From the NCBI GenBank assembly GCA_024742575.1, contig JANSYF010000019.1, positions 1 through 49,865 on the forward strand: a DNA stretch of 49,865 nt, read 5' to 3'. This document shows positions 29,979 through 47,049 of the stretch, one piece after another. This stretch comes from Paracoccaceae bacterium. Lineage in GTDB: Bacteria; Pseudomonadota; Alphaproteobacteria; Rhodobacterales; Rhodobacteraceae. Under the pieces are notes generated by a model that was not told the origin of the DNA, made no database searches, and saw nothing but the letters and a program-made list of their open reading frames with translations. Numbering within the stretch: position 1 is the stretch's first letter; every line of letters begins with the position of its first letter. Both the position numbers and the translations under genes were made by a program.

Positions 29979-30028
29979 AGTGTGAGCTGTCGACGAGACA
30001 ATTTCGGGGGCAAAGGGTTCACAGGCAG

Positions 30029-33000
30029 GTGCGGAAGCTCAAAAGCCATTTTTTGTTTTCAGCGTCGGATTTGATGCGTTTTATGGGCTGCGCACACGCG
30101 ACGGCTCTTGATCTCATGTATTTGCGTGGCGAGGGACCTGAGCCTGGCGAGGATACTGAGGATGCCGTGCTTCTTAAAAAGCAGGGCGACGCGCATGAGG
30201 CGGCGCATCTTGCTCGCCTCAAGGAGGCCGGACGCACAGTCATGGAAATTGAGCGCGGCAAGCTTGGCGAGAACGCCGAAGCAACACGCGCAGCGCTCGC
30301 CGCTGGTCCGGATGTGGTGTTTCAGGGTGCGTTTCTATCCGGAAACTGGGGCGGCTGGTCCGACTTCCTGGAGCGTGTCGAGACACCCTCGGCGCTTGGG
30401 TCGTTCAGCTATGAAGTGGCCGATACCAAGCTGAAACGACGGGCTGATCCCAAACATGTGCTTCAGCTGGTTCTGTATTCTGATTTGCTGGCGGAAATTC
30501 AGGGGGTGGTGCCCGAGTTCGCGCATGTCGAATTGGGAGACGGCACCCGCGCGACGCTGCGCCTGGCAGACTACTCTTCCTATGCTCGGATGGCGCGACA
30601 ACGGCTGGAAGCCTTCGTCGCCGATCCGCAGCCGACACGCCCGGTACCATGTGCTGATTGCGGTCTGTGCCGCTGGGCCGAACATTGCAACATTGTCTGG
30701 CAGGCCGAAGACAGCTTGTTCAATGTCGCCAACATCAGTCGTGGTCAGGTGAAAAAGCTAGAAGCCGCGGATGTTCACACATTGGAGGCTCTCTCGACGC
30801 TGGATCAGCCAGTGCGCGGAATGGCCGAAAATACCCAGGCCCGTTTGGTCACTCAGGCCCGCCTGCAGCAGGCCCGCAAAACCGGGGAGCCAGATTTCGA
30901 ACTACGGGCACCTGAGCCTGGCAAGGGCTTTGACCTGTTGCCTGAACCGCAGCCGGGCGACCTGTTCTACGACATTGAAGGCGATCCACACTACGAGGGC
31001 GGTCTCGAATACCTACACGGCATCTGGTTCGATGGGCGGTTCCAGGCGTTCTGGGCACATGACCACGATGCCGAAGCGCGGGCATTGTCGGACTTGCTGG
31101 CGTTCTTTCGTGAGCGGATTTCGCAATACCCCACTGCGCGCATCTATCACTACGCGCCATACGAGATCACAGCGCTCAAACGCCTGACCACGAAATATGG
31201 GATCGGTGAGGCTTTCCTCGACCGGTTGTTGAGGGAACGCCGCTTCGTAGATTTGTTCGCCGTCGTGCGCGGCGGGCTGATCGGGTCTGAGCCAAACTAT
31301 TCCATCAAATCGATGGAGGCATTTTACAATCGCAAGCGCGACGGCGAGGTCAAGACGGCGGGTGGCTCGGTCGTTGCCTATGAGCGCTGGCGCGAAACGC
31401 AGGACCAGCGGATTTTGGACGAGATCGAGGATTACAACCGCATCGACTGTATCTCCACTGAGGAACTGCGCGACTGGCTGGTAGGCATCCGACCCAACGG
31501 CCCTTGGCCGACACTTGCCCCGGACGCTGGGGAAAAGGAGGTCGAACAGGATGCCGATACGCAAGCATTGCGGAGCATGCTGGCGGAGTCCGGCTTGCCC
31601 GAGGCGCGGCAGGATATGCTGTTCAACCTCGGCGTCTTTCACAGCCGTGAGGTGAAGCCCGCGCAATGGGCCGTGTTCGATAGCGCTGCGAAAGACGAAG
31701 ATGATCTGCTTGACGATCTCGATGCACTTGGTGGGCTTGAGGCAGCGGGCCCTGTCGAGCCCGTGAAGCGATCCTTCGCGCGCCGATACACCTATCCCGA
31801 ACAGGAGACGAAGCTTCGTAGCGGAAAAAAGGCGACGGTTCCCGTGTTTGACAGCCCACCTACAACCGTCGGGATCGAGTCCATGGATCACCGCGCCCGC
31901 CAGATCACGGTCAAAGCAGGTCCAGGCAAGGCTGACCTTCTGGCGGATCAACTGAGGCTGCATCCGGACTGGCCGATCCAGACGGGTGTCATTGCCGGTG
32001 CTTTGCTCGATGTGATCGCCGATCAGTGCGGCGCTCGCCGGTACACGGCCGTGGATGACCTGCTGTCGCGCACTGCACCGCGCCTGAGCAATGGTCCAAA
32101 GGGTAATCTTCTGGGCGGGGCAGACTCCGTAGCGGGCACCATCGCTGTGGTAAATGACATGGATGGAACGGTCCTGCCGATCCAGGGGCCGCCTGGCACC
32201 GGTAAAACCTTTGTTAGTGCCCGCGCAATACTGTCTCTTGTCCGGAAAGGGCACCGCGTCGGTGTTGCTTCGAACAGTCACGAAGCAATCCGCAATGTTC
32301 TCATGGGCTGTCTTCTCGCCCTCGACGATGACGATCCTGACATCACGCTGGAAAATGTCGAACTGGCGCACAAGGTCGGTGGCGGTGAGGATGGGTATCC
32401 CGATGGATTTTCCGGGATTACCCGCGCCCAGTCGAACCATGACCCTGCGCTATCAGACGCCCATGTCGTGGGCGGCACGGCGTGGTTCTTTTCCCGCGAC
32501 GAGAATGTGCAGGCTTTTGACTGGCTGTTCGTCGACGAGGCGGGCCAGGTTGGCTTGGCAAACATGGCTGCCATGGGTCGTGCTGCGCGAAACATCGTGC
32601 TTGTGGGCGACCCACGCCAGTTGCCGCAGGTCATTCAGGGAGCGCATCCGGTACCTGCAAACCTGTCGTGCCTAGATTGGATGCTCGGTGAGCATGCGAC
32701 GGTTCCAGCCGACCGGGGCATTTTCCTTCCCATGTCGCGGCGCATGCACCCTGACGTCTGTCGGTTTGTCTCGGAACAGGTGTATGAAGGCCGACTGACC
32801 AACCATCCAGATACCGCTCACCAGCGCGTGACAGGCACGGCGCTCCCCGAAGCTGGGGCTTTCTGGGTGCCGGTCCTGCATGAGGGTAATGCACAGATCG
32901 CACAAGAAGAAGTCGCCGCAATTGGAGGCACCGTCGCCAAGCTTCTTGGTGGAAGCTGGACGGAAAAGGATGGCAGAACACGGTCAATGCGCGAAACGGA

Positions 33001-33352
33001 CATCATCGTTGTTGCCCCGTACAACGCACAGGTGAATGCTCTCAGAGATGCCCTTCCATTGGGTGTCCGGGTCGGAACTGTGGACAAGTTTCAGGGACAA
33101 GAGGCACCGATCTGCCTGGTTTCCATGACCGCATCTTCTGCTGAAGAAACCTCGCGTGGGATGGAGTTTCTGTTCTCTCTCAACCGCATCAACGTCGCGG
33201 TGTCACGCGCCAAGGGACTCGCATTAGTCTTTGGGTCGCCGCGTTTGCGTGAGGCGAAGTGCAATACTGTCGAGCAAATGCAGTTGGTGAATACGCTGTG
33301 TGCTCTGCCGCCGTTGTTGGCGGAATACGGCTGCATGAATAATCCAGATTAG
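30029..33352 (+). CDS. TM0106-family RecB-like nuclease / RNase H-like / SF1 helicase fusion
   Basis: This 1107-aa protein has three modules. (1) A PD-(D/E)XK RecB-like nuclease (residues about 1-225) with G-W-S-D-F-L, E-V-A-D-T-K and Q-L-V-L-Y, then a Cys cluster C-A-D-C-G-L-C-R-W-A-E-H-C typical of Fe-S nucleases. (2) An RNase H-like exonuclease domain (about 310-490) with F-Y-D-I-E-G-D and Y-N-R-I-D-C. (3) An SF1 helicase (about 690-1100) with Walker A Q-G-P-P-G-T-G-K-T, VDEAGQ, GDPRQLPQV, VDKFQGQE and NRINVAVSRAK. The layout is Dna2-like. Start is GTG 30029. A role in DNA repair or in degrading foreign DNA is possible; the defence island context favours the second. Confidence 0.85.
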   Translation: MRKLKSHFLFSASDLMRFMGCAHATALDLMYLRGEGPEPGEDTEDAVLLKKQGDAHEAAHLARLKEAGRTVMEIERGKLGENAEATRAALAAGPDVVFQGAFLSGNWGGWSDFLERVETPSALGSFSYEVADTKLKRRADPKHVLQLVLYSDLLAEIQGVVPEFAHVELGDGTRATLRLADYSSYARMARQRLEAFVADPQPTRPVPCADCGLCRWAEHCNIVWQAEDSLFNVANISRGQVKKLEAADVHTLEALSTLDQPVRGMAENTQARLVTQARLQQARKTGEPDFELRAPEPGKGFDLLPEPQPGDLFYDIEGDPHYEGGLEYLHGIWFDGRFQAFWAHDHDAEARALSDLLAFFRERISQYPTARIYHYAPYEITALKRLTTKYGIGEAFLDRLLRERRFVDLFAVVRGGLIGSEPNYSIKSMEAFYNRKRDGEVKTAGGSVVAYERWRETQDQRILDEIEDYNRIDCISTEELRDWLVGIRPNGPWPTLAPDAGEKEVEQDADTQALRSMLAESGLPEARQDMLFNLGVFHSREVKPAQWAVFDSAAKDEDDLLDDLDALGGLEAAGPVEPVKRSFARRYTYPEQETKLRSGKKATVPVFDSPPTTVGIESMDHRARQITVKAGPGKADLLADQLRLHPDWPIQTGVIAGALLDVIADQCGARRYTAVDDLLSRTAPRLSNGPKGNLLGGADSVAGTIAVVNDMDGTVLPIQGPPGTGKTFVSARAILSLVRKGHRVGVASNSHEAIRNVLMGCLLALDDDDPDITLENVELAHKVGGGEDGYPDGFSGITRAQSNHDPALSDAHVVGGTAWFFSRDENVQAFDWLFVDEAGQVGLANMAAMGRAARNIVLVGDPRQLPQVIQGAHPVPANLSCLDWMLGEHATVPADRGIFLPMSRRMHPDVCRFVSEQVYEGRLTNHPDTAHQRVTGTALPEAGAFWVPVLHEGNAQIAQEEVAAIGGTVAKLLGGSWTEKDGRTRSMRETDIIVVAPYNAQVNALRDALPLGVRVGTVDKFQGQEAPICLVSMTASSAEETSRGMEFLFSLNRINVAVSRAKGLALVFGSPRLREAKCNTVEQMQLVNTLCALPPLLAEYGCMNNPD

Positions 33353-33379
33353 CGCCATACGCGATGCCATCAATTTTCA

Positions 33380-33405
33380 GGAATAAATTTTGTCACTGAA
33401 CCGTC
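33380..33405 (+). promoter_or_regulatory. Putative ECF sigma promoter 1 (GGAAT-N17-CGTC)
   Basis: GGAAT (33380-33384) and CGTC (33402-33405) are separated by exactly 17 nt. The same pair with the same spacing occurs at 36667 and 43549. The -35 GGAA and -10 CGTC types are those of ECF sigma factors, and an ECF sigma gene lies at 37096. It starts 28 nt after the nuclease-helicase stop and precedes the leader ORF. Confidence 0.7.
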
Positions 33406-33442
33406 TCCTTGATGACAACAACCGCCATCAAACAAGGAGACG
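33402..33442 (+). repeat. Inverted repeat linking -10 element and ribosome site
   Basis: CGTCTCCTTG (33402-33411) is the perfect reverse complement of CAAGGAGACG (33433-33442). The left arm contains the promoter -10 element, the right arm the ribosome-binding site of the leader ORF. If transcription starts about 6-9 nt after the -10, the left arm is mostly untranscribed, so a DNA-level site is as likely as an RNA hairpin. Confidence 0.6.
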
Positions 33443-33448
33443 ATCCAG

Positions 33449-33544
33449 ATGTGTTGCCAAAATCGATTCCCATTGGCTTTAAGATTGGCTCAGTTCGCTG
33501 CGTTGGTCTCTATGAAAATGGGAGACCTCTATGCTGCACGTTGA
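33449..33544 (+). CDS. 31-aa leader ORF upstream of the DUF4258 gene
   Basis: ATG 33449 follows an ideal AAGGAGA site. The 31-residue product starts M-C-C-Q-N-R-F and has a Leu/Ala-rich middle (LALRLAQFAALV). Its TGA (33542-33544) lies 14 nt inside the downstream gene, whose own ribosome site GGGAG is inside this ORF. That suggests translational coupling. It could be a tiny antitoxin-like partner or just a leader peptide. Nothing in the sequence identifies a family. Confidence 0.5.
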   Translation: MCCQNRFPLALRLAQFAALVSMKMGDLYAAR

Positions 33545-33812
33545 CTTTACCCATCATGCCCGAGAGAGATTGCAGCAACGCGGATTTCGCAGAGCTGATG
33601 TCGATCTTGTCCTGGAGGCTGCGAGCGAAATTCAACCCAAGGTTTACGTTCTCACCGATCAGGATGCCGCTCGCGAAATAAAGCGGCGCAAGCAAGAAAT
33701 ACAACATTTGGAACGGTTGCGTGGCGCAACTCTGGTGATCGACGAAGGCCGTCTCATCACGATGTATCACGCAAGAGATGAGACGATCAGAGAGCTTTCA
33801 AAAAAGCGCTGA
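33531..33812 (+). CDS. DUF4258-domain protein
   Basis: This 93-aa basic protein has the DUF4258 pattern: H-H-A-R-E-R-L-Q-Q-R-G-F near the start (residues 6-18), a middle with beta strands (KVYVLTDQ) and a C-terminal ATLVIDEGRLITMYH. DUF4258 proteins are small and resemble BrnT/RelE-type folds; several occur in toxin-antitoxin-like pairs, but the function of most is unknown. No classical antitoxin follows. The gene is translationally coupled to the 31-aa leader ORF and lies downstream of ECF-type promoter 1. Confidence 0.65.
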   Translation: MLHVDFTHHARERLQQRGFRRADVDLVLEAASEIQPKVYVLTDQDAAREIKRRKQEIQHLERLRGATLVIDEGRLITMYHARDETIRELSKKR

Positions 33813-33885
33813 GTTGTCGCCTTATCAAAAAACATCACCGCCACAACGCGCTTGCGAAGTAGCGCTTTGAACCTTGGAGGCCGAA

Positions 33886-35484
33886 ATGGTTCGGTGTAAT
33901 TCAACACTTGATGACAAGAACGCATTGCTGCCCGAGCGTGAAATGCGTGCTCATAATGCGCGATATGCCGGGCGCCTGAAAAATCTGGCTTGGTTAATCG
34001 AAATTGTTCTTGTGACAGCTGGCTTGGGCATCGCCTTGGCTCAAACACAAGATGCCTGGGCCACGGCTGGTTTCGTCCAGTCCTTCCCGGTATTTGCTGT
34101 TTTTCTGATCTTGGCGATTGTTGAGCTTGCGAAGATTCCCGCGACTACTGTCATTTTTCACGCTCGTGGGATCGTACGCGTGTTAGCGCTGCTTGGTTTG
34201 TTGGTCGCGGCGGGGATTTCGTTTGAAACAGTGTTCAACGGGTTTGAGCGTTTTGTTCATCACACCACTCAAAAAGTGAGCGACGCTAGGGCAGAACTTC
34301 AGGAGATAGAGAGCGAGATAGCCCGCTTGCAATCGACTTCGTTCGAAAGTGAAATTTCGGGTGAGGCGATTGAGGAAGCTGACAAGAAACAGAGAGATCT
34401 GCTAGAACAACGCGTTTCAAGCGCTGAAGCAGCTGTTTCGGCCGCAAGCCAGAATTTGGAAAGCTCAAAAACAAAAGATTTACGGCTTCAGTTGAACCGT
34501 GTTCTGCAGCAGCAAAATGATGCCGGTCGTATTGCCGGAGACGAGTGGCAAAAAGAGCAGGAATGGATCATGCAGCGCTTGGAAAGCGAAGCCATTGATT
34601 CACGCACACGCGGTCAGCTCAATGCGCGCATGCGGTCAATGCCTGCAAAGCAAAATGTTGTTGCTGCTGCCCGAGCTGAATTTGACGATACAGTGAAAAA
34701 TCTGAACGCTGAAATTGAGGCATCAATACAAGCCCCATCTGAACAAGCGCTCAAAATAGTGGCAGCCCGACAAGCAGAACGCGATCGCGCAATGGAGGCC
34801 TTGGCAGCGTTCGACAAAGAAGCACGTGCCCGCGAGCGCAGCAGAACCGAAGCCCTCATCAATCTTCAAGCTGATAAAGCAAAGCGAGCAGCCTTGATTG
34901 AAGAACTTGAAGCAAATGCGGTTCAGGCAGAGAGGGCGCTATCTGCTGCTGCTAACGGATCGCAAATGCACCGCTGGGCATCTGCAGTGTTTAAAATCAA
35001 TCCTGAAGAAGTTCAGGATCACCAAGCGAAAACTGTTGGTACGGCGTTTGGGGTTTTCCTGGGAGTGGTAGCTGCTCTCACAGGGTCCAGTGTTGCGATG
35101 TACGCCGAATGGTTTCGTATGAGAGGTGTGGCGCCTGTTGTCGTGAAAGAAGAGGTGCCCGTTGAGGTCATCGTAGAAAAAGAAGTGGAAAAGCCCGTTG
35201 AAGTTGAGGTTCCAACCACAGTCTACAAATATGTTCCCGTGCCGATTGGTGATGATCCATCTGACACGATTGCAGCTATTCTGGATATCTTGCCGGATGA
35301 AGCCGCAGAGAGCTTGAAAAGCCAGCTGCCTGACGGCTTTGGGATCTTCAAAGGTGATAGCCCGAATAGAAAAGTCTCGAATGATGACTCCAAACATACT
35401 GTGTCTGGATCAAATTCAGCAAGCTCCGGCCCCAATGAATCAAAGACCAAAGATGCGGGAGGCTCCTATGCGCGAGCGGCATGA
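33886..35484 (+). CDS. Membrane protein with long coiled-coil domain, unknown function
   Basis: This 532-aa protein has two or three N-terminal transmembrane helices (about residues 30-50, 58-80 and 92-112), then a long Glu/Ala/Gln-rich coiled coil (about 125-360). Another transmembrane helix follows (about 385-405, AFGVFLGVVAALTGSSVAMYA), then a Val/Glu-rich segment (EVPVEVIVEKEVEKPVEVE) and a C-terminal soluble part. ATG 33886 is used because TTGGAGG lies 5 nt upstream. It resembles membrane sensors or scaffolds rather than an enzyme. Its 3' end overlaps the ClpP-like protease gene by 17 nt, which suggests that the two proteins work together at the membrane. Confidence 0.7.
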   Translation: MVRCNSTLDDKNALLPEREMRAHNARYAGRLKNLAWLIEIVLVTAGLGIALAQTQDAWATAGFVQSFPVFAVFLILAIVELAKIPATTVIFHARGIVRVLALLGLLVAAGISFETVFNGFERFVHHTTQKVSDARAELQEIESEIARLQSTSFESEISGEAIEEADKKQRDLLEQRVSSAEAAVSAASQNLESSKTKDLRLQLNRVLQQQNDAGRIAGDEWQKEQEWIMQRLESEAIDSRTRGQLNARMRSMPAKQNVVAAARAEFDDTVKNLNAEIEASIQAPSEQALKIVAARQAERDRAMEALAAFDKEARARERSRTEALINLQADKAKRAALIEELEANAVQAERALSAAANGSQMHRWASAVFKINPEEVQDHQAKTVGTAFGVFLGVVAALTGSSVAMYAEWFRMRGVAPVVVKEEVPVEVIVEKEVEKPVEVEVPTTVYKYVPVPIGDDPSDTIAAILDILPDEAAESLKSQLPDGFGIFKGDSPNRKVSNDDSKHTVSGSNSASSGPNESKTKDAGGSYARAA

Positions 35485-36604
35485 CACGGTAATGCTAGAA
35501 CAAGTCACGACAGCTCTTGCCAATAGGCTAGAAGCCCCAGCAAAAGCACTGAACGCGGCGTCTGGAAGATTGGATGAAGAAGTCCAGATGAAAGTTGCAG
35601 AACGTCAGGCTGAAGCCCAGGTATCCATTCTCCGCGCAAAGTCAGTTTCAATTGCGACAATGTTACTTTGTCTTGCTGTGTTGGCAATCGCTCTTGGTCT
35701 TATGGGAAGACTAGTTCTGGGAGCCATCTACACTGAGAACCCTTCGGTATCGGACACAAAACCCATTTCATCTCCCGTTCAACTGCCAACATTGCCTCCA
35801 TCTGTTGACCTCGATAATGCGACGGTGACAAGTAACTTTACTCTATTTCGTCAGGTCGCCGCTCGCATTGGGGAGCAAGAGCTTACAGTTCAAGCGGGAC
35901 ACCATTTTGCGAAGAGCACCGATACAGATTTTGAGCATGCTTGGTGCTACTCAGACATTACTGTTGAGGATGTCACGTACGATCTCATGCTTGGAATCAA
36001 GAACCCGGGAAGCAAGGCGATACTGAGGCCGATTTCTGATGGTATGCAAAAAGCAACAGGGTTGAAGCCAGCTGATCACCGAGCTTTATTCGAAAAATGT
36101 CCATGGCTAGATGGTAATCCGAATGTCTCGACAGGTTCTTCGCGATCCAACACCTACGAACTTCGTGGTGAGGTAGACCAAGCTGCCGTGGACCGACTCA
36201 TTGCCGCCGTTGAGCAAGGCGTCAAATTAGTGAGGCTGAATTCTCCTGGTGGAGATATGGGACATGCTATGCGCGCCTTTGATTTTTTGGCCGCGGCGAA
36301 CGTTGATACGGAAGTACGCGGCATTTGTGCTTCAGCATGCAGCATAATTTTTCTGGCGGGTAACAACCGACATGTACCAGTAGGCTCGAGTTTTGGTGTT
36401 CATCAATGGGTGTCTCTGAACAATGCTGTAACAGAGGCGGAAACGCAGTTCTTCGCAGCTGAAATTATGGAGCGGTTCAAGAAAGCTGGCGTCGATGAAG
36501 CTCTGTTTATAAATGCGTCAAAAACCCCGCCCTCTCGCATGTATTGGTTGTCGGAGTACGAACTCAAAGTCTGGGGCGTGACCCGGTCGGGTTTATCGTC
36601 CTGA
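35468..36604 (+). CDS. Membrane-anchored ClpP-like serine protease (COG3904-type)
   Basis: This 378-aa protein has one transmembrane helix near residues 58-82 (LLCLAVLAIALGLMGRLVLG), a linker, and a C-terminal ClpP/crotonase-like domain (about 230-378). Visible are L-N-S-P-G-G-D, the nucleophile elbow C-A-S-A-C with Ser289, and F-G-V-H-Q-W with His312. These correspond to the oxyanion Gly-Gly, catalytic Ser and catalytic His of ClpP-type proteases. With the helix N-terminal, the domain should face the periplasm. ATG 35468 has GGGAGG 5 nt upstream. A second gene of this type lies at 47050. Possible substrates include the anti-sigma-like protein encoded downstream; this is speculation. Confidence 0.75.
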   Translation: MRERHDTVMLEQVTTALANRLEAPAKALNAASGRLDEEVQMKVAERQAEAQVSILRAKSVSIATMLLCLAVLAIALGLMGRLVLGAIYTENPSVSDTKPISSPVQLPTLPPSVDLDNATVTSNFTLFRQVAARIGEQELTVQAGHHFAKSTDTDFEHAWCYSDITVEDVTYDLMLGIKNPGSKAILRPISDGMQKATGLKPADHRALFEKCPWLDGNPNVSTGSSRSNTYELRGEVDQAAVDRLIAAVEQGVKLVRLNSPGGDMGHAMRAFDFLAAANVDTEVRGICASACSIIFLAGNNRHVPVGSSFGVHQWVSLNNAVTEAETQFFAAEIMERFKKAGVDEALFINASKTPPSRMYWLSEYELKVWGVTRSGLSS

Positions 36605-36666
36605 GCAAGCCTTAGCGCGCTCCCCTTTCCCAGTGCACGGCTGATTTTCAAAAATTTCAATCACCT

Positions 36667-36692
36667 GGAATAAAAACTGATCGGCAAACGTC
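36667..36692 (+). promoter_or_regulatory. Putative ECF sigma promoter 2 (GGAAT-N17-CGTC)
   Basis: GGAAT (36667-36671), 17 nt, CGTC (36689-36692), in the 130-bp gap between the ClpP-like gene and the small secreted protein gene. It would also drive the sigma gene 360 bp downstream if transcription continues, giving autoregulation. Confidence 0.7.
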
Positions 36693-36734
36693 TATTGAGA
36701 AGGAAGCATATTCTAGCACAGAGGAAACCCTATA

Positions 36735-36998
36735 ATGCGTATCATGATGACAACCATTTTGCTTATGCTCGCGACACCGGCGATTTCAGGAGAAGAAGAC
36801 CAGCCGGGCGTATACGAAGCTGAACAGCCAACAGAGCGTGGAAACATCCTTGCTGATGACGCATACTACCGCCACTTGTCACTGAGGGCTGTGTGTGGCG
36901 GAGCACAACGAGATGAACCTTGGGCAGATGGTGATCCGCTGCAGGTGCGTCCGGTTCCAAACAAATCTGCCGTGTTTCTCACAAGATGTGTCTGGTAG
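36735..36998 (+). CDS. Small secreted protein upstream of the sigma gene
   Basis: This 87-aa protein has a clear signal peptide (MRIMMTTILLMLATPAISG, cleavage after about residue 19), a GAGGAAA ribosome site, and a mature acidic part of about 68 residues with two Cys (VCGGAQR and TRCVW) that could form a disulfide. It lies 43 nt downstream of ECF-type promoter 2 and about 100 nt before the sigma factor gene. It may be an effector or signal of the sigma-controlled response. No family recognised. Confidence 0.65.
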   Translation: MRIMMTTILLMLATPAISGEEDQPGVYEAEQPTERGNILADDAYYRHLSLRAVCGGAQRDEPWADGDPLQVRPVPNKSAVFLTRCVW

Positions 36999-37095
36999 GC
37001 ATGCGATGATGTCGCCAGCCGCGGGGCTGGTAGAAGTTGATCGAAGTGAGGTCGTCCGTTAGCCTTCATGGTACGCAGGCAGATGAGGCGCACTC

Positions 37096-37608
37096 ATGAC
37101 GGACGCAGAGTTTCGGCAGGCAGTCTTGGATTTATTTCCAAAATTGAAGGTGTTGGCCATGGCAAGGACAAAGAATGGGGCCTTCGCCGAAGACATTGTT
37201 CAGGACGTCATGGTTAAAGTTTGGAGCAGCCCTGGGCAAATTCTTGAAGCCGTTGAACGTCTGGAAGTCACTTTGGAAAAGTACCTAAAGCGGATGGTAG
37301 TCAATCGCTTTTATGACGTAATTCGCAGAGAGAATCGGTTGGTGCATGACGATGATTTCGCTGACCAGCTAGAGGAAGTTGTTCCATCGGATCCAACTCG
37401 GCGGAATTTGTTGCTTCGAGACCTCGCGCGCCATTTGGCCAATATAGGTGATGATTGCAGGGGCTTACTGGTCGAACGAGCCGCTGGAATTAAGCAGCAG
37501 GAGTTGGCAGATCGCAGAGCAATTTCACAATCTGCTGTGAACAAACGGATCGCAAAATGCCTTAAAGAGCTGCACGAGAGTTGCGGTGGGAGCCTGCACG
37601 ATGCTTAG
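37096..37608 (+). CDS. ECF-type RNA polymerase sigma factor
   Basis: This 170-aa protein has the two-domain layout of ECF sigma factors. Region 2 covers about residues 8-78 (AEDIVQDVMVKVWSS, the core-binding and -10 recognition helix, then the R-M-V-V-N-R-F-Y-D-V-I-R-R-E-N motif). Region 4 covers about 105-160, with helix-turn-helix Q-Q-E-L-A-D-R-R-A-I-S-Q-S-A-V-N-K-R-I. The gene overlaps the next one by 8 nt (ATGCTTAG), so sigma and the anti-sigma-like protein are made together. Three GGAAT-N17-CGTC sites in the window are its likely targets. Region 4 should read the GGAAT element; this is inferred. Confidence 0.88.
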   Translation: MTDAEFRQAVLDLFPKLKVLAMARTKNGAFAEDIVQDVMVKVWSSPGQILEAVERLEVTLEKYLKRMVVNRFYDVIRRENRLVHDDDFADQLEEVVPSDPTRRNLLLRDLARHLANIGDDCRGLLVERAAGIKQQELADRRAISQSAVNKRIAKCLKELHESCGGSLHDA

Positions 37609-39289
37609 GGACCTCGAACATGACGATTTGCAAGGCAAGCTCATTGCGTATCTGGACGGGGAACTGTCCGCTGCCGAAGTTGCAGAGCTAAACATTATGC
37701 TGGCGAACGATCCAAGTTTGCGCCGGGATTTGGAAGTTTATCAGGAAATGTCCAGTTATCTTGAGGAGCTTTGTGAGGCGGATGGCGCGTTAATTCCTGA
37801 GCAAGTTCTGGCTCGTTTTAATGTTGATCAGGCGTTTGTGCAGCGCTCCCCAAGCCGCACTGGGCCTGATGACCGAGTGGATTTTCAAAAAAGCACAGCA
37901 ATTTCAAAGTCGGCTGACGAACTCATGCAAGCCAAAATTGCTGCTGCCAAAGAGCGCGATCAACCAAAACGCTCTCAAAGCGCGGAGGCCGATAACCGCT
38001 TGCGAGCATCAAAAGACGCGCGGAAAGCTGAAGATATCGAAAGAAAACGGAAAGCAGAAACAGAACACAGCGCTAGGAAAAAGCAGAATGACCAATTGCG
38101 ATCAGCTGAGTTAGCCAGGCTATATTCTTTAGAGAACCCTAGAGACCGAATAGACTGGCTGCTTGGAACTCAGCTTCCACTGCCGGCAATTCCTGAGGAC
38201 GTTTTCAAGCCGACGCTGTCCATAAGGCTCGAATTAAACACACTAAAAACAGCGCAACTCTTAAAGAGACTTTCCAATTTTCCCGAAAGGAAAAAATCTG
38301 TTTGGTATCAGTTACGTCAGAAGGTGGAAATGCTGCATCAGGTTCAGCGCGAAGAACTGCAAGGTAAGCTAGTTGCTTACCTCGACGGCGAGCTTTCTCC
38401 CGCCGAGGTTTCTGAACTGGAGGCTTTGTTGTCGTGCGATGCAGATCTACGAGGCGAATTGGAACTTTACAGGCAGATGTCTGATCACCTTAAAGTGCTT
38501 GCAACCGCTGATGGTATTTCAGCGCCGAGTCATATTCTGGCAAAGTTTCGAGTGGATGATCCAATCCCCGACTATCCTGTGCCAGAGGAAATTCAAAAAG
38601 TCGGTGATATTGGCACTGCTTTTCCTTTTGGTACTAACAGTATCAAGTCGCGTCCCAAAAAAATTCCAAGCCACTTAGCGTCAGTGAAATCTTCTAGAAG
38701 CATTGATGATAATGACGTGAAAGATTTTGCTGCGCGAAGCGAAGCCAAACACACTAGGACAAGACCGCAATCCAGATTTTTTACCCGTCAGAGTATTATG
38801 CAAATGGCAGCCGCATTGGTGCTGGGGATCTTTGTTGGACCGCAAATTTTTCATGTACCTGGCCCACAAGGTGGCTTGGAGGGCGTGGGGGCTATTCAAC
38901 TAAGAAGCGGCGATAACCTTGCGGCAATTAATGAACAGTTACCCATAAACCCAGTAAGTCTCCTAGCTCTGTCGGACGAGGGTATTTTTGACCGCCGCAT
39001 CGAACCGGGAGGCGTCATCGAGGCAGGTAAGCCATTTGTCTTAAGATTAAATGCACCGCTTGATGGTATTGTTCGAGTCTATGACGTTACGCGGACTAAG
39101 GGGGTGGATGCTAGTTTACAAGAAAACCGAACGGTTATTTATCAGGGTCCTGTTACTCTTGGTGACCGCTTCGCGCTACCTGAAAAAGGAGCGTTTAGCT
39201 TGAGTGACCAGACAAGCTTTGCCCTAGCCGTGATATTTGAGGGTGCGAGTGAAACATATGAAGCGAGCTTTTCATTTTTTGTGGATTAA
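37601..39289 (+). CDS. Membrane anti-sigma-like protein with duplicated N-terminal domain
   Basis: This 562-aa protein contains two copies of the same domain: residues about 5-75 (DDLQGKLIAYLDGELSAAEV) and about 246-320 (EELQGKLVAYLDGELSPAEV). It resembles anti-sigma N-terminal domains (E-x-L-x-A-Y-L-D-G-E-L-x-x-x-E), without the zinc-binding H-x3-C-x2-C. A charged linker separates them. A transmembrane helix lies at about 399-418, and a C-terminal beta domain (about 440-562) resembles DUF4384-type domains and would be periplasmic. The overlap with the sigma gene strongly suggests that it binds this sigma factor. ATG 37601 is preferred over an upstream GTG. Two sigma-binding domains on one chain are unusual. 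Confidence 0.8.
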   Translation: MLRDLEHDDLQGKLIAYLDGELSAAEVAELNIMLANDPSLRRDLEVYQEMSSYLEELCEADGALIPEQVLARFNVDQAFVQRSPSRTGPDDRVDFQKSTAISKSADELMQAKIAAAKERDQPKRSQSAEADNRLRASKDARKAEDIERKRKAETEHSARKKQNDQLRSAELARLYSLENPRDRIDWLLGTQLPLPAIPEDVFKPTLSIRLELNTLKTAQLLKRLSNFPERKKSVWYQLRQKVEMLHQVQREELQGKLVAYLDGELSPAEVSELEALLSCDADLRGELELYRQMSDHLKVLATADGISAPSHILAKFRVDDPIPDYPVPEEIQKVGDIGTAFPFGTNSIKSRPKKIPSHLASVKSSRSIDDNDVKDFAARSEAKHTRTRPQSRFFTRQSIMQMAAALVLGIFVGPQIFHVPGPQGGLEGVGAIQLRSGDNLAAINEQLPINPVSLLALSDEGIFDRRIEPGGVIEAGKPFVLRLNAPLDGIVRVYDVTRTKGVDASLQENRTVIYQGPVTLGDRFALPEKGAFSLSDQTSFALAVIFEGASETYEASFSFFVD

Positions 39290-39304
39290 AAGGGACTAAT
39301 CAAA

Positions 39305-42300
39305 ATGGCAGGAATAATGCGTTTCAGGTTTATTTGCCATAAGCGCATTGGCAGCTTTATCATAAATGACCCTCATAATATCCAGTTACCTTTAGGATTT
39401 TTTTCTCTTATTTTGTCGATAGCCTCAATTTTTTGCCAAATGGCTTGGGCCAACAGTGCCAATAATTTTGACGAAAGTAAGCTCAAAGCACTGCTTGAGG
39501 TGGAGGCATATGACTCAGCACTCGCAGAAGTAACTCCATATGCCGGGCAAGGAAGTCCTAGGGCGCAATTTTGGCTTGGGAAAATCTATGATGAAGGGTG
39601 GGGAGTTGGCGAGGATGATACGGCAGCTAGTGAATGGTACCGTTTAGCTGCCGAGCAGGGTGATATCAATGCTCAATTCATTTTGGGATTGATGTACGAC
39701 GAAGGCGAAGGGGTAACGGAAGACAATCAAGAGGCGATCAAGTGGTACCGTTTAGCTGCCGAGCAAGGTGACGCTCAAGCTCAGGTCAATTTGGGTCTCA
39801 TTTATGACTTAGCCGATGGCGTGGTTGAAGACAATCAAGAGGCCATCAAGTGGTACCGCCTTGCTGCGGCTCAGGGGGCGGCAGAAGGGCAGCGTTTGCT
39901 TGGTGCAATGTATGATGACGGTGAAGGTCTGCCGGAAGACAACAAAGAGGCCATCAGATGGTATCGCCTAGCGGCGGAACAGGGTGATGATGTTGCTCAG
40001 GTTTTGCTTGGACAAATGTATGATGAGGGCGAAGGAATTGCGGTGGATGATTCAGAAGCGGTAAAATGGTACAAGCTTGCAGCACAGCAGGGCAATGCCG
40101 AAGCACAAAATAATCTAGGCGTTATGTATGAGTACGGTGAGGGAATTGAAAAAAATTCACAACAGGCTGTTTTCTGGTACGAACAAGCAGCTAGCCAGGG
40201 CTTTGGGGTTGCCCAATTTAATTTAGGCTTAGCCTATGAAATAGGCGATCTAACTGCCCAAGACATAAATTTAGCACTTAAATGGTATGAAAAAGCAGCT
40301 GAAAATGGTATAATAGATGCGCCCGCAAAAATTGGTACGATTTTTGACGACGGCGTTGCCGTGCCAGAAAATAATGAAATAGCAGTTCAGTGGTATCGTA
40401 AGTCCGCTGAAATGGGCGATCCGAAAGGTCAGCGCTTGCTTGGTTGGATGTACGACCATGGACAGGGAGTGCCCGAAAACAAAAAGCAGGCGTTTGAATG
40501 GTACCAAAAAGCAGCTGAACAGAATGATGCCGTGGCGCAGAGGCTACTCGGATGGATGTATGATAAAGGTGAAGGCGTCGAAGAAGATGATGAACAGGCC
40601 ATCCGATGGTATCTTTTAGCTGCTGAACAAGGTGATGCGACCGCCCAGAATTTACTCGGAAATATGTTCTTTTATGGTGACGGAGTTGAAGAAAGTTTGT
40701 CCAGTGCTAATGAGTGGTATCGAAAAGCGGCTGAGCAGGGCAATGCAGATGGGCAGGTAAATATTGGGCTGGCATATGACTTTGGTGAGGGTTTCGAAGA
40801 GGACAATGTAAAGGCTATATTTTGGTATGAGAAGGCTGCGAATCAAGGTCATGCTGGTGGTCTGTATCTCTTGGGTACCATGTATGATTATGCCGAAGGT
40901 GTTCCGGAAGATAACGATGAAGCGCTTAAATGGTATCATGCCGCTGCAGAAAATGGCAGCGATCGCGCGCTTAATCGACTTGGTTGGATTTACCGTTCTG
41001 GAGATGGTGTTGCCGCAAATGAGGAGTACGCTGAAAAGCTTTTTTTGAAAGCTGTTGCAAATGGCCATGCGCAGTCTTCGATAGACTTGGGGTATCTCTA
41101 CACACTTGAACGCTTTATCGAAGGCAAGACGGAGAATGGAATAAAATTGCTGTCGGAGGCAGCTTCTAAGGGCTCCCTTGAAGCGCTGACGCATCTCTCA
41201 GATTATTTTATTTCAAGCCAAGATATTGCAGCAGCGGAAAGAACACTGTTTTCCGACAACTTTGATTTCTCTTCTGATAAAGGCTTCCAGGATATTGAAA
41301 GGCTTTGGCTGATGCAAAGCCTTCGCGATTATTACGCATCTCTTCAAGTTTTTAATAAAGCGGTTTACTTTAGCAAAGCTGCGTTGAGCTTTGCTGAAAA
41401 ACATTATGGCAACTCATCAGCCCAGTTTTTTGATGAGCTAGTGAGTTTGTCGCATCTTCAACTGGCGGCGAATGACAATGTTGGTGCTTTAAGGAGTATC
41501 AAAAGCTATCTCGCAAGCGAGAAGTTTTTAGCTGACATTGATCTTGAGAACCACGCTTATTTGTTGGTGAACCTCGCGTATTCCAAACTACGGTTAGGTA
41601 TCGATCCAACGCAAGATTTTTCCTCCGCTAAAACAAAATTTCAAGAACTCCAGAATGACTGGGGACTAGGCCAGATAGATCTTGGAGAAGCTGAGTATTT
41701 TTTAAAGAACGGTGAATGTGAAAAAGCTGATGAGAGACTCAGTGAAGCTTTTGATAAATTGGTATTGGAAGAGCTTGATATTTTGGATTCATCTGCTTTT
41801 CATTGGAATATAAATCTAATTTATATGGATATGTGTATGGAAAATTATAAGCAAGCACAGCATGTATTTGTTAAACTATTTAATGCTTTGGAAGGAAGAA
41901 GGGCGGCTAGTGAAGTATTATTAAATTCTTATTCTGTTGAGTCTCAAGTTTCGCATAGGCAACAATTGCTTGAAGCTGCTTTGAGGGGTGGCGCAAGTTT
42001 TCTTGAAACACCAAAAATGAAAAATGCTGTTTTTCAATTGATGCAGAATGTATCTGGTAAAGATGAAGTGAGTCAAAGTTTTTTAACTAGCATGGTTAAA
42101 TCTGTTGAGCCTAAGTTGAGCTTTGAGGTTCAAAAGGCTTTTCAAGATAAAGATACGTTTTTGAATTTTAGAAACCGAGATGTGGAGGCTGAGCATGCTA
42201 CTCTCATATCAAGTCAAAAGAGCCGAGCCCAGATTTACCGTAGTTTAAAAATTACATCGGATAACCTTCGTGCGAGAAACGATAATCTGTATGAGCTTTT

Positions 42301-43531
42301 ATTTCCCCAAAGCCTTTCAATTGATTATCTTCAATCGCGCCTTCAGAACAAAGAGATCTTCCTTTATTTTCATACTTCCAGCCAGGATGAACGAATTTAT
42401 GTTGTGGCTATTTCTAAAGATAGCACACTTTTTTATGAGTCAAAACTTAAACAAAAGGATTTTACCTGGCGTATTATAGCACTCAGAAATTCCATTGATC
42501 TTTCTAGATCAGAAGGTCTTCTGAAATTTGATTTTAAGACTTCATATGATATCTACGACGCCCTTCTAGGCCCGGCTGAAAAACTACTGAACGAAGCAGA
42601 TCACTTGATTGTCTCGTCGTCCGGTTTTCTTGAAAGTTTTCCCTTTAACATTTTAATATCTGAGCCGCTTTCCGATTATGGTGAAGATCACTTGGAATTA
42701 TACCCCAGTGCAGCGTGGTTGCCCAAGTCATTCACAATTCAGTCTCTTTCGGCACCGTCATCTTTAAACATGATCCGAGGCTTGTCAGAACAGAGAATTG
42801 CAATGTCGGATGCATTTATAGGATTTGGTGATCCAATTTTGGAGGGTCAACCCAGTGCATTAAGGGGTCTAGAGATCGTAGATGTCTATGAAGGTGCAAA
42901 GGCAGATTTGGGCAAGCTTCGCGCTTTGCCTGAATTACCTGACACAGGGGAGGAGCTACGCAGCATTGCAGAATTCTTGGGTGCGCCGCCCGCAAACGTA
43001 TTTCTGAGAGAGAACGCAACTGAGGCCCAGGTCAAATCAACATCTCTCAATCGCAGTAGCGTCATTGCTTTCGCTACGCACGGGTTAATAAGTGGCGAGT
43101 TAAACGGTTTGGCGGAGCCCGCACTCGTTATGACGCCGCCAGATAAAGCCACCGAATATGACGATGGCCTTTTGACGGCGAGCGAAGTAGCGCAGTTGGA
43201 TCTGAATGCCGATATCGTCTTGTTGAGCGCATGCAACACCGGCGCCGGCAAGGAACTTGGGGCCAGTGGTCTGTCCGGCTTGGCCAGGTCATTCATCTAT
43301 GCTGGTGCTCGGTCGTTGCTCGTCACACATTGGTCTGTCGACAGCAAGGCAACGACTAAGCTCACAACAGGTATGTTCGAAGCGATGGCGTCGGATCCAA
43401 GCATTGGCAGAGCCGAGGCTCTTCGACGGTCGATGTTGAACATGATCAATGATGACGAGAACCCGCATTATGCGCACCCTGCTTTCTGGGCTCCTTTCAG
43501 CTTGATCGGCGACGGTCAAACAGCAAACTGA
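39305..43531 (+). CDS. Exported Sel1-repeat protein with C-terminal CHAT caspase-like protease
   Basis: This 1408-aa protein has an N-terminal signal or anchor (about residues 32-51, FFSLILSIASIFCQMAWANS) and 15 consecutive Sel1-like repeats of exactly 36 residues (about 78-620, pattern A-Q-x-x-L-G-x-M-Y-D-x-G-x-G-V). A helical middle follows, then a CHAT domain (about 1040-1405). The catalytic dyad is visible: His1259 in F-A-T-H-G and Cys1310 in L-L-S-A-C-N-T-G-A-G. CHAT proteases (separase/caspase clan) act in conflict and signalling systems and are usually cytoplasmic; an export signal is notable. The gene follows the anti-sigma gene by 15 nt and is AT-richer than the left half of the window. 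Confidence 0.85.
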   Translation: MAGIMRFRFICHKRIGSFIINDPHNIQLPLGFFSLILSIASIFCQMAWANSANNFDESKLKALLEVEAYDSALAEVTPYAGQGSPRAQFWLGKIYDEGWGVGEDDTAASEWYRLAAEQGDINAQFILGLMYDEGEGVTEDNQEAIKWYRLAAEQGDAQAQVNLGLIYDLADGVVEDNQEAIKWYRLAAAQGAAEGQRLLGAMYDDGEGLPEDNKEAIRWYRLAAEQGDDVAQVLLGQMYDEGEGIAVDDSEAVKWYKLAAQQGNAEAQNNLGVMYEYGEGIEKNSQQAVFWYEQAASQGFGVAQFNLGLAYEIGDLTAQDINLALKWYEKAAENGIIDAPAKIGTIFDDGVAVPENNEIAVQWYRKSAEMGDPKGQRLLGWMYDHGQGVPENKKQAFEWYQKAAEQNDAVAQRLLGWMYDKGEGVEEDDEQAIRWYLLAAEQGDATAQNLLGNMFFYGDGVEESLSSANEWYRKAAEQGNADGQVNIGLAYDFGEGFEEDNVKAIFWYEKAANQGHAGGLYLLGTMYDYAEGVPEDNDEALKWYHAAAENGSDRALNRLGWIYRSGDGVAANEEYAEKLFLKAVANGHAQSSIDLGYLYTLERFIEGKTENGIKLLSEAASKGSLEALTHLSDYFISSQDIAAAERTLFSDNFDFSSDKGFQDIERLWLMQSLRDYYASLQVFNKAVYFSKAALSFAEKHYGNSSAQFFDELVSLSHLQLAANDNVGALRSIKSYLASEKFLADIDLENHAYLLVNLAYSKLRLGIDPTQDFSSAKTKFQELQNDWGLGQIDLGEAEYFLKNGECEKADERLSEAFDKLVLEELDILDSSAFHWNINLIYMDMCMENYKQAQHVFVKLFNALEGRRAASEVLLNSYSVESQVSHRQQLLEAALRGGASFLETPKMKNAVFQLMQNVSGKDEVSQSFLTSMVKSVEPKLSFEVQKAFQDKDTFLNFRNRDVEAEHATLISSQKSRAQIYRSLKITSDNLRARNDNLYELLFPQSLSIDYLQSRLQNKEIFLYFHTSSQDERIYVVAISKDSTLFYESKLKQKDFTWRIIALRNSIDLSRSEGLLKFDFKTSYDIYDALLGPAEKLLNEADHLIVSSSGFLESFPFNILISEPLSDYGEDHLELYPSAAWLPKSFTIQSLSAPSSLNMIRGLSEQRIAMSDAFIGFGDPILEGQPSALRGLEIVDVYEGAKADLGKLRALPELPDTGEELRSIAEFLGAPPANVFLRENATEAQVKSTSLNRSSVIAFATHGLISGELNGLAEPALVMTPPDKATEYDDGLLTASEVAQLDLNADIVLLSACNTGAGKELGASGLSGLARSFIYAGARSLLVTHWSVDSKATTKLTTGMFEAMASDPSIGRAEALRRSMLNMINDDENPHYAHPAFWAPFSLIGDGQTAN

Positions 43532-43548
43532 AAAAATTGCATCATCCA

Positions 43549-43574
43549 GGAATAATCTCCGAAGGTGGTTCGTC
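43549..43574 (+). promoter_or_regulatory. Putative ECF sigma promoter 3 (GGAAT-N17-CGTC)
   Basis: GGAAT (43549-43553), 17 nt, CGTC (43571-43574), only 17 nt after the CHAT gene stop. Like promoter 1 it reads GGAATAA and CGTCTCC, and it precedes the 56-aa secreted peptide and the VWA gene. Confidence 0.7.
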
Positions 43575-43617
43575 TCCTAGCCACAAGGATGAAACGACCA
43601 CGCAATCTTAGGAGATC
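43571..43617 (+). repeat. Inverted repeat linking -10 element and ribosome site (second case)
   Basis: TCTCCTA (43573-43579) is the reverse complement of TAGGAGA (43609-43615); a G-T pair extends it. As at 33402, the left arm overlaps the -10 CGTC and the right arm is the ribosome site of the next gene. The shared geometry at two ECF-type promoters argues against pure chance. Confidence 0.5.
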
Positions 43618-43620
43618 AAA

Positions 43621-43791
43621 ATGAAAAAGATCGCACTTACCGCCGCTGCAATTGTTTCGTTTGCAACAGTGTCGCAAGCAACAACGACAATCCAGACCAT
43701 CGGCAATCACACCTACATCAACAGCTATGGAACCAGCGGTTTTTCTTCGACGGTGTGTACGACAATTGGCACGACGGTCTACTGCAACTGA
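43621..43791 (+). CDS. Secreted 56-aa Thr-rich peptide with two Cys
   Basis: ATG 43621 follows AGGAGA by 5 nt. Residues 1-20 (MKKIALTAAAIVSFATVSQA) form a textbook signal peptide with an A-x-A-like cleavage site. The mature 36-residue peptide is Thr/Ser/Gly/Tyr-rich and contains two Cys near its end (S-T-V-C-T-T-I-G-T-T-V-Y-C-N), which could form a 9-residue disulfide loop. The gene is the first of the unit behind ECF-type promoter 3 and lies 125 nt before the VWA gene. It may be a signal, toxin or surface peptide. No family recognised. Confidence 0.7.
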   Translation: MKKIALTAAAIVSFATVSQATTTIQTIGNHTYINSYGTSGFSSTVCTTIGTTVYCN

Positions 43792-43916
43792 GTTTGCTGC
43801 TGGCGTCACTGTCCCAATCGTATGGCGGGGCATTGGCGCTGTATCCATCTAATGCAGCCCTTGGCAGTCCGGCCAACGCTTGGCTTCGTTATAAAATTTT
43901 CCCAGAAGGTGGTAAA

Positions 43917-45245
43917 ATGATTGATCTCAAATTCTCGGCAGAGAAAAACGGTTTGCGAGCGGGGTACCCTCAAACCTTTAACGTATTGCTTCGCATATCT
44001 TCTGCTGAAAGTGCCCGTCCCGCCGAAAAGCGCTCGGCTCTGAATATTGCTTTGGTTATCGACAAATCAGGATCAATGGCGGGAGACCCGCTTAACCAAG
44101 CGAAGCGGGCTGCTTCGATGGTTTTGGAACGGCTGGCAGACTATGATCGTCTTTCAATCATAGCATACGACCAAAGCGTCGAAGTGCCAGTGCCATCAAT
44201 GCCGGTTCGTGGATCGCGACTTGAAATAGAGCGCGCAATTCATGCTATCCAGCCTGGCGGTACCACGGCGCTTTTTGATGGTTGGAATGCAGGCGCGCAG
44301 CAACTGTCACGAACAAAGCAAAAATCGGATATCTCCCGTGTGATGTTGCTTTCCGATGGCTGTGCAAATGCAGGTTTAACTGATGTGGGGGAAATCTCAC
44401 AGTTTTGCGCCCGCATGGCGGACTCTGGGGTTTCAACATCAACGTATGGTTTGGGCCTAAATTTTAATGAACTCCTAATGGCGCAAATGGCTGAAGCAGG
44501 GCAGGGCCGTCCGTATTACGGACAAACGGCAGATGACTTGATGGATCCGTTTCAGGAAGAGTTCGAGCTTTTTGATGCATTGGTGGCGCGCAGCCTTAGG
44601 TTGAAACTGACGCCCGAGCCGGGTGTCCGCTTCAAAGTCCTGAATTTGTATCGTGAAGGCTCTGACGGTTCTTTTATATTACCGGATCTTGCCCATGCCG
44701 GAGAGGTTTGGGCATTACTTGAAGTCGAGGTTTGCGACGAAGGGATGGTGTCACAGGTTGGTTCTTCTGTGCGCCTTTTGACGGCGAGGGCAGACTTCAA
44801 AAACCGTGATGGCGAATATGTTGAGAGTGATCAGGCGATACTTGGGCTCGACACTTTGAACCAACAAGATTTCGCCCGCCTAGAAGTTAATCCAGATGTT
44901 CAGAGCCGATTGACTGAAATACGTGCCAGTCAAATGCAGTCGGAAGCAGCGGAAGCCGCGCGACGAGGAGATTGGCAGCGTGTGGATGCCCTAATTGCCC
45001 AGATACGGGAGACTGGACAGGGTAATGCGTGGGTGGTGCAGTCTATTCAGCGTCTGCAGGCATATGCCGATCTACGCAGCGTCAGCGCTTTCGCAAAGGA
45101 AGCGGATCATAAAGCTCATTCCATGAGGAATCGAATGGCTTCGATGTCGGAAAGTGCTGGCAGCTGGTCGGCATCTGAAGAGGCGATGAAGCCAAGATAT
45201 CTGCGGCGCAAACTTGAGCGAGGTCGAAAGCACCCTGGTGATTAA
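43917..45245 (+). CDS. VWA-domain protein with intact MIDAS
   Basis: This 442-aa protein has a short beta domain (residues about 1-40), then a von Willebrand A domain (about 43-225). The metal-ion site is complete: D49-K-S51-G-S53 in VIDKSGSMAG, Thr in G-G-T-T-A-L-F-D-G, and Asp in L-L-S-D-G-C-A-N-A-G. A C-terminal helical region follows. No signal peptide is present with ATG 43917, which has AAGGTGG upstream; a longer reading from GTG 43755 would overlap the secreted peptide gene. VWA proteins act as scaffolds with ATPases or proteases. Together with the CHAT protease it suggests a multi-protein assembly. Confidence 0.82.
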   Translation: MIDLKFSAEKNGLRAGYPQTFNVLLRISSAESARPAEKRSALNIALVIDKSGSMAGDPLNQAKRAASMVLERLADYDRLSIIAYDQSVEVPVPSMPVRGSRLEIERAIHAIQPGGTTALFDGWNAGAQQLSRTKQKSDISRVMLLSDGCANAGLTDVGEISQFCARMADSGVSTSTYGLGLNFNELLMAQMAEAGQGRPYYGQTADDLMDPFQEEFELFDALVARSLRLKLTPEPGVRFKVLNLYREGSDGSFILPDLAHAGEVWALLEVEVCDEGMVSQVGSSVRLLTARADFKNRDGEYVESDQAILGLDTLNQQDFARLEVNPDVQSRLTEIRASQMQSEAAEAARRGDWQRVDALIAQIRETGQGNAWVVQSIQRLQAYADLRSVSAFAKEADHKAHSMRNRMASMSESAGSWSASEEAMKPRYLRRKLERGRKHPGD

Positions 45246-45318
45246 GCCTTGGCAGTAGCCCTGCCATTCCGTGAACGTCCGAAGACTGAAAGACAGTAGA
45301 ATCCCAGAAAGGCAAATC

Positions 45319-46181: not shown

Positions 46182-46196
46182 GTCAACCTAAGGTGA

Positions 46197-46303: not shown

Positions 46304-46311
46304 ATGAGATC

Positions 46312-46950: not shown

Positions 46951-47049
46951 GGCGCAGGCATCTTGGCGTGCGGCTAGGAATACCGAGCACAAACGACGGC
47001 AAGCGGATAGGTCGAGCGGCAAAATAGGCCAAGAAGGAGCAGTAAGAAT

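Follow-up and report, generated by a model that had tools for sequence, protein, structure and literature searches.

A candidate three-promoter ECF sigma factor autoregulon with a membrane anti-sigma factor and a Sel1-CHAT protease in a Paracoccaceae bacterium

We analysed a 49,865-nt stretch of DNA from a Paracoccaceae bacterium (contig JANSYF010000019.1 of assembly GCA_024742575.1; hereafter the window), which harbors a gene for a divergent extracytoplasmic function (ECF) sigma factor of 170 amino acids (37096-37608) and, on both sides of it, three promoter-like sites of the form GGAATA-N16-CGTCT. All of the sites and genes described for this locus are on the + strand. Promoter 1 is located at 33380-33406 (GGAATAAATTTTGTCACTGAACCGTCT), promoter 2 at 36667-36693, 5' of the sigma operon (GGAATAAAAACTGATCGGCAAACGTCT), and promoter 3 at 43549-43575 (GGAATAATCTCCGAAGGTGGTTCGTCT). 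None of them lies in an open reading frame (ORF) of at least 150 amino acids, and all are left uncovered by a greedy gene call; promoter 3 is overlapped by a reverse-strand ORF of 110 amino acids once the ORF limit is lowered. The initial annotation of this sequence had described three sites with identical spacing, starting at 33380, 36667 and 43549 and each placed just upstream of a + strand gene. The letters and the spacing proved to be as claimed, and from the last base of the site to the first base of the next start codon we counted 43, 42, and 46 nt for promoters 1, 2, and 3, respectively.

The sites precede three gene units. Unit 1 starts with a leader ORF of 31 amino acids (33449-33544), which has a Shine-Dalgarno-like AAGGAG recognized by eye and overlaps by 14 nt the start of a gene for a DUF4258-like small protein of 93 amino acids (33531-33812; PF14076, E=6.2e-5, 23.7 bits, just below the cut-off of 25). 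The overlap suggests that the two genes are translationally coupled. An alternative start for this unit is the ATG at 33412, six bases past the -10 element, from which a protein of 89 amino acids would be made. The unit continues with a coiled-coil-like protein (33886-35484; the coiled coil was assigned by eye) that has about four hydrophobic segments, no family and no plasmid relative at E 1e-5, and with a ClpP-like protein (35468-36604; Pfam CLP_protease, E=6.9e-5, 23.2 bits vs. 20.2) containing one hydrophobic segment (60-78). Unit 2 encodes a small protein of 87 amino acids with two cysteines and a signal-like N-terminus noted by eye (36735-36998), in which no segment exceeds the hydropathy limit, followed by the sigma factor, a putative anti-sigma factor (37601-39289) and a Sel1-repeat/CHAT protease of 1408 amino acids (39305-43531). 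Unit 3 comprises a peptide of 56 amino acids, again with two cysteines and a signal-like N-terminus by eye (43621-43791), and a VWA-domain protein (43917-45245; Pfam VWA, 7.8e-15), the start of which is uncertain, as its ORF opens at 43755. Shortly after the VWA gene there is a gene for a Staphylococcal-nuclease-like protein (45582-46181, + strand), and further on a gene for a protein of 253 amino acids with a hydrophobic N-terminus (47050-47811, + strand). The latter protein probably has the fold of the ClpP-like product of unit 1, since one ORF of L143 matches both.

The statistical support for the three sites depends on how strictly the motif is written. The loose form on which the initial annotation had relied, GGAAT-N16..18-CGTC, has three matches in the window against 1.66 expected, and 25 of 100 shuffled sequences reach at least three, so that this form is not significant alone. 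In the whole assembly (3.49 Mb, 87% complete) it is 2.5 times commoner than a reversed control (94 vs. 37), and 28 of the 30 matches examined fall inside stop-to-stop ORFs of at least 150 amino acids. The loose form was discarded as evidence for both of these reasons. The form GGAATA-N15..17-CGTCT, in contrast, occurs three times in the window against 0.02 expected, a count reached in 0/100 shuffles; for a spacer of exactly N16, 0.012 occurrences in the window are expected under an order-1 Markov model, and the probability of at least three is 2.8e-7. Exact GGAATA-N16-CGTCT has three copies in the assembly, all of them the sites of the window. Three other matches to GGAATA-N15..17-CGTCT, each with a spacer of either 15 or 17, all lie inside ORFs of at least 150 amino acids. 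Matches with at most one mismatch are not in excess (34 vs. 37 in the reversed control), and 26 of 27 one-mismatch sites examined, from a total of 31, are within ORFs of at least 150 amino acids. The initial annotation had named equally good matches at random genomic positions as an argument against its proposal; we looked for such matches, and found the exact motif here only and no one-mismatch excess. The regulon, if there is one, looks confined to this locus.

In a set of 101 genomes (the genome of the window and 100 relatives), the exact motif is present in 40, with 64 matches in total. Among the 100 relatives, many of which have fragmented assemblies, two copies on the same contig are never closer than 119 kb. 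The genome G074 has five exact sites. One of these, overlapped by a reverse ORF of 158 amino acids, is followed at a distance of 131 nt by the region of an RpoE6-like gene that gave the match. Other signals around the promoters were few. Inverted repeats couple the -10 region with the downstream Shine-Dalgarno region at promoters 1 and 3 (33396-33448 and 43573-43615; 88% over 16 nt, and 7 nt without a mismatch). The same search reported none at promoter 2, and for that reason the idea that these repeats act as an operator was dropped. The leaders showed no unusual RNA folding (z from -0.7 to 0.1), and an Rfam scan of 30000-49865 gave nothing above the gathering score. Sigma-70-like promoter matches were close to the shuffled number (16 vs. 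11.9), and one weak match of this kind (9/12) at 43528-43556 overlaps promoter 3.

The sites match a described class of ECF promoters. The consensus for ECF26 promoters is GGAATA/GT, and in PMC6180224 the Sinorhizobium meliloti promoters of SMc04291 and SMc04051 (rpoE4) are exactly GGAATA-N16-CGTCT (Table 1), with those of SMc01418 and SMc01022 having equal spacing and one different base. Our comparison used nine hand-picked strings from that table; of the others, four are spaced by 15 nt and one does not match, and the entries marked as RpoD or RpoH, SMa0143, SMa0139, SMa_sRNA_10, SMa0187, SMb20065 and others were left out (PMC6180224). The window sites have the -35 GGAATA, the GT core in the -10 element, and CGTCT at N16 as in the RpoE1/RpoE4-linked promoters. 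They do not have the EcfG/ECF15 form GGAAC-N16/17-CGTT, showing GGAAT and CGTC instead. Loci of relatives served as controls. Some GGAA(T/C)/CGT(C/T) site was found at 15/19 loci of EcfG-like relatives. In a zone that begins 300 nt before the sigma ORF and reaches 150 nt into it, on either strand, GGAAC-N16/17-CGTT was found at 13 of these 19 loci (at nine on the strand of the gene), a result that checks the site-finding method. In this zone, GGAATA-N15/16-CGTT was found at 19 of the top 30 loci of RpoE6-like relatives, at 16 of them on the strand of the gene.

The sigma factor itself is divergent. It is recognized as a member of the ECF superfamily (TIGR02937, 59.5 bits vs. a cut-off of 42.9; Sigma70_r2, 1.8e-8), and the closest relatives found, which are 26-31% identical, are proteins that we take to be EcfG-like from our own reading of their sequences and of the GGAAC/CGTT sites at their genes. 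A scan of genome contigs added one 27% match. A tree of 50 rows places the sigma factor among the EcfG-like rows (99/96) and outside the RpoE6-like group, on a branch of length 9.0. This placement is unsure because the branch is very long and because the neighbors were picked for matching the sigma factor: the EcfG-like rows are 14 of the 19 relatives, chosen as its best matches. The locus resembles EcfG/ECF15 systems in the nearest proteins found, in having a GGAA-type promoter and, tentatively, in the tree placement, and differs from them in the promoter elements (GGAAT/CGTC rather than GGAAC/CGTT) and in the extreme divergence of the sigma factor. EcfG is controlled by NepR and PhyR, whereas this locus encodes a putative membrane anti-sigma factor. 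With the ECF26 systems of S. meliloti RpoE1 and RpoE4 the locus shares the promoter, identical to those of SMc04291 and SMc04051, an anti-sigma gene adjoining the sigma gene, and a signal-peptide gene upstream, as SMc01418 is upstream of rpoE1 (PMC6180224). It differs in that the sigma factor, by comparison with RpoE6, is not recognisably ECF26. Judged by sequence, a sigma factor that is not a demonstrable ECF26 protein stands beside an ECF26-type promoter.

The gene after the sigma gene encodes the putative anti-sigma factor. Its ATG at 37601 overlaps the end of the sigma gene by 8 nt; searches used the sequence from 37604 onwards (a stretch of 561 amino acids). The protein has two sigma-binding-like domains, in which 39 of 75 residues are identical and which are about 240 residues apart (duplication score of 202, where 500 shuffled sequences gave at most 59). 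Both copies are followed by a single hydrophobic segment (398-416) and a C-terminal part. The second copy matches zf-HC2 (1.3e-7, 32 bits vs. 22.2), with the first just below the cut-off. A two-row model of the domain has three core helices, with a mean predicted local distance difference test score (pLDDT) of 61; the model of the C-terminal part was too poor to use (pLDDT of 43). As in class I anti-sigma factors, a predicted helical, sigma-binding-like domain is encoded beside the sigma gene, here with zf-HC2 above the cut-off, together with a hydrophobic segment that would span the membrane; the fold match is suggestive only. The gene overlap and the domain content are consistent with a product that restrains the sigma factor. 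Among 197 other genomes of the family one match of 57 residues was found, and no relatives were found on plasmids at E 1e-3.

The protease of unit 2 has Sel1 repeats in 14 stretches (3.2e-132) and a CHAT domain (9.7e-54; PF12770, 183.2 bits vs. a cut-off of 24). Its ATHG and LSAC motifs presumably hold the CHAT dyad His1258/Cys1309, and its export-like N-terminus contains a hydrophobic stretch at 26-44. Of 389 other genomes from the order, 22 contain relatives of the CHAT protein (E<=1e-30), which are 32-51% identical, and 166 plasmid records match, the closest domains being about 39-40% identical. We examined the neighborhoods of eight plasmid loci and of 32 genome regions in the 22 other genomes, which represent 39 of 42 listed places. 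On roseobacter plasmids the relatives have caspases and trypsin-like proteases as neighbors, joined in one type by a two-component system.

The three units and their surroundings differ from the first part of the window in composition. The GC content in 2-kb windows is 0.60-0.67 up to 18 kb and 0.40-0.56 over 32-49 kb. The part with higher GC content carries a phage-tail-like module at 1617-13743 (+ strand), in which tape-measure and tail-like genes are accompanied by those for a peptidoglycan-binding and a collagen/endosialidase-chaperone protein. On the reverse strand, 17761-28075 encodes an SNF2 helicase, a methylase and a large ATPase-looking protein without a family match, probably an Hma- or BREX-related operon. 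PADLOC matched the helicase to HmaA (1.4e-92) but better to BrxHI (2.7e-98), and the methylase to HmaB (1.9e-34); we take these Hma-like genes to be defence genes. A WYL protein is encoded at 28056-28925, and 30029-33352 (+ strand) encodes a fusion of 1107 amino acids of an RNase H-like part with a superfamily 1 helicase, similar to MkoA/MkoC of PADLOC. The regulon's own proteins had no strong PADLOC match. Judging from this context, the regulon was probably acquired horizontally, as part of an island, and appears to be defence-associated.

We consider it likely that a single alternative holoenzyme, formed with the sigma factor of 37096-37608, uses all three sites as its promoters, and that the locus is a self-contained autoregulon. 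The regulon interpretation of the initial annotation is to a large extent supported by a motif found only here, by its agreement with a published type of ECF promoter, and by the lack of equally good sites elsewhere. We infer that the local sigma factor reads the three sites, that the product of the gene behind it restrains it, that the operons are as drawn here, and that the signal comes from the envelope. In the resting cell, the membrane anti-sigma factor would hold the sigma factor through its two sigma-binding-like domains. An envelope signal would inactivate the anti-sigma factor, and the freed sigma factor would then transcribe unit 1 (leader peptide, DUF4258-like, coiled-coil-like and ClpP-like proteins), unit 2 (small secreted protein, sigma factor, anti-sigma factor and Sel1-CHAT protease) and unit 3 (secreted peptide and VWA protein). 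Transcription of unit 2 would lead to positive feedback, with a delayed shut-off through renewed anti-sigma factor. An envelope-signalling or defence module that is self-contained and positively autoregulated is the most likely reading of the locus.

Several observations weigh against this interpretation. One is that the motif was picked after viewing the sequence and that the window has 56 different dyads of the 6-mer/N16/5-mer shape with three or more copies, so that repetition alone proves little; together with the lack of significance of the loose form, this leaves room for three coincidental matches to a dyad chosen after the fact. A crude greedy gene call, which overlooked the ClpP-like gene and in which 5.3% of the window remained free, left at least two copies mostly uncovered for GGAATA/CGTCT alone among the 56; it covered no part of any of the three copies of this dyad. 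The finding is rescued from the post-hoc doubt because this is the sole uncovered dyad and because the motif had been published beforehand, and independently, in another bacterium (PMC6180224). The cluster is also unique among the 101 genomes, and the distance to the start codons is nearly constant, so that we hold coincidence to be very improbable. Other adverse results concern the partners of the motif. GGAATA/CGTC was found near the sigma gene at none of the 19 EcfG-like and none of the 30 RpoE6-like loci; as these 49 control loci lack it, the exact CGTC form is backed by the published promoters and by G074 only. The best NCBIfam match of the sigma factor is TIGR02985, at 66.6 bits below its cut-off of 126.4, and the protein is 19% or 24% identical, by two comparisons, to RpoE6, a member of ECF26. 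Searches for an orthologue of the sigma factor in the 101 relatives, in 385 class genomes and 394 family genomes, on plasmids, and in viral and genome contigs found none (the limits being E 1e-12 in the 384 other class genomes and E 1e-8 on plasmids). For the anti-sigma factor, the comparison of the domain model with PDB gave RsiW bound to SigW as the best match and a SigK partner as the third, both non-significant (E 0.75 and 5.8).

The sites could also be real ECF promoters that are read by another sigma factor, either one encoded in DNA that the assembly lacks or one of the other sigma factors that it holds, with the local sigma factor having other targets. The assembly being 87% complete gives some room for this, and the recognition helix of the local protein, SAVNKRIAK, is unlike those of the EcfG-like and RpoE6 rows; furthermore, the published ECF26 sigma factors read this motif (PMC6180224). 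A regulon served in trans should, on the other hand, show further near sites, and there is no excess of those with at most one mismatch. Our searches of the assembly point the same way. At E<=1e-10 the local sigma factor finds nothing but itself in this 87%-complete assembly. At E<=1e-20 RpoE6, which has matches in 144 of 385 class genomes at that limit, finds none (8 of 9 candidates were scored, and the local sigma factor also fails the limit). We thus found no EcfG- or ECF26-type competitor in the assembly, a weak negative. TIGR02937 matches 11 places, 3 of them below the cut-off, which would favor a competitor; three longer matches above the cut-off look like RpoD/RpoH, in our judgement. 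GGAAT/CGTC is absent from the 700 bp scanned upstream of the four other ECF sigma factors examined (C79, C57, C68 and C75), and C68 has two GGAAA..CGT matches upstream, which counts against the autoregulon reading. With the local sigma gene flanked by all three sites, we regard control by another sigma factor as unlikely.

A separate question is the part played by the protease. The CHAT-relative loci (the 32 regions and eight plasmid loci) lack the exact motif, and a profile of our own making detected no ECF gene in them; because the relatives occur without an ECF gene nearby, CHAT does not need the sigma factor; as far as seen, the CHAT-sigma link appears local to this genome in the data examined. 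The promoters may belong to the local sigma factor with CHAT as an output effector only, the anti-sigma factor being lost through the ordinary site-1 and site-2 proteases of the host, of the DegS/RseP type, or through a change in its own outer domain. DegS/RseP-type proteases are known to carry out stepwise proteolysis of anti-sigma factors. This reading also agrees with the placement of the relatives beside caspases and other proteases, some with a two-component system, and with this established stepwise proteolysis by other proteases; the case of RseA and DegS is also covered in PMC10028731. Against it, the CHAT gene directly follows the anti-sigma gene in the operon, the protein has the export-like N-terminus that a cleaver of the outer part would need, and Craspase provides a precedent (PMC10028731). 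We judge the chances of this reading to be evenly balanced. Cleavage of the outer part of the anti-sigma factor by the exported CHAT protease, as Csx29 cuts Csx30, is the step that we favor but also the one held least firmly, and on balance it is less likely than not; otherwise the protease would be an output of the regulon.

Craspase is the nearest functional parallel. There the protease Csx29, a tetratricopeptide repeat-CHAT protein, cleaves Csx30, which inhibits the ECF factor CASP-sigma; three strong matches to the CASP-sigma motif are reported for the locus (PMC10028731). Both this type III-E CRISPR system and the window have an ECF sigma factor, a protein inhibitor, a repeat-CHAT protease and three sigma-motif sites in one locus (PMC10028731). 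In contrast to Craspase, the window locus has no CRISPR-like repeats in 28000-49865, where direct repeats of at least 24 nt are Sel1-coding only, and general library scans named no Cas effector for the window proteins that they covered. The CHAT protein of the window also differs in its Sel1 repeats and export-like N-terminus, and the inhibitor in being a membrane anti-sigma factor with zf-HC2-like domains. ECF sigma factors have also been predicted to be coupled to caspase conflict systems, the EACC2 systems (PMC8195603). By their description, these are set apart by caspase and EACC2 domains, where the window has Sel1-CHAT and a membrane anti-sigma factor. Among the literature matches listed, no ECF-Sel1-CHAT regulon is described, the nearest being Craspase and the caspase systems of PMC8195603. 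The caspase/CHAT islands of Pseudosulfitobacter plasmids have the closest plasmid CHAT domains, at about 39-40% identity, and differ in having caspases and a two-component system nearby and no ECF gene in the stretches read. In one of them, on a plasmid of Pseudosulfitobacter sp. DSM 107133 (L047, 138-16832), genes for a CHAT protein and a two-component system accompany those for two caspase-family proteins, serine proteases and a patatin, and CcdAB-like genes come next. This island is possibly a protease-based conflict system under different control.

What sets this locus apart is that an unusual orphan sigma factor occurs together with a CHAT protease and a putative anti-sigma factor whose domain is duplicated, in what may be a self-contained ECF autoregulon. 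Genes that otherwise appear unrelated, for DUF4258-like, coiled-coil-like, ClpP-like, CHAT, VWA and small secreted proteins, would be tied into one three-promoter regulon. The very divergent sigma factor, together with the ECF26-type promoter, would make a useful case for how ECF promoter specificity is encoded, and the locus may offer a parallel outside CRISPR to the ECF sigma factor-inhibitor-CHAT circuit of Craspase. More speculatively, and with little confidence, we propose a CRISPR-independent circuit in which the exported, caspase-like CHAT protease senses an envelope event such as phage attack, cuts a membrane anti-sigma factor able to hold two sigma factors, and fires a closed three-promoter regulon that consists of proteases and small secreted proteins. 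If such a sigma/anti-sigma/CHAT circuit were true, the Craspase circuit would be one case of a wider protease-sigma design.

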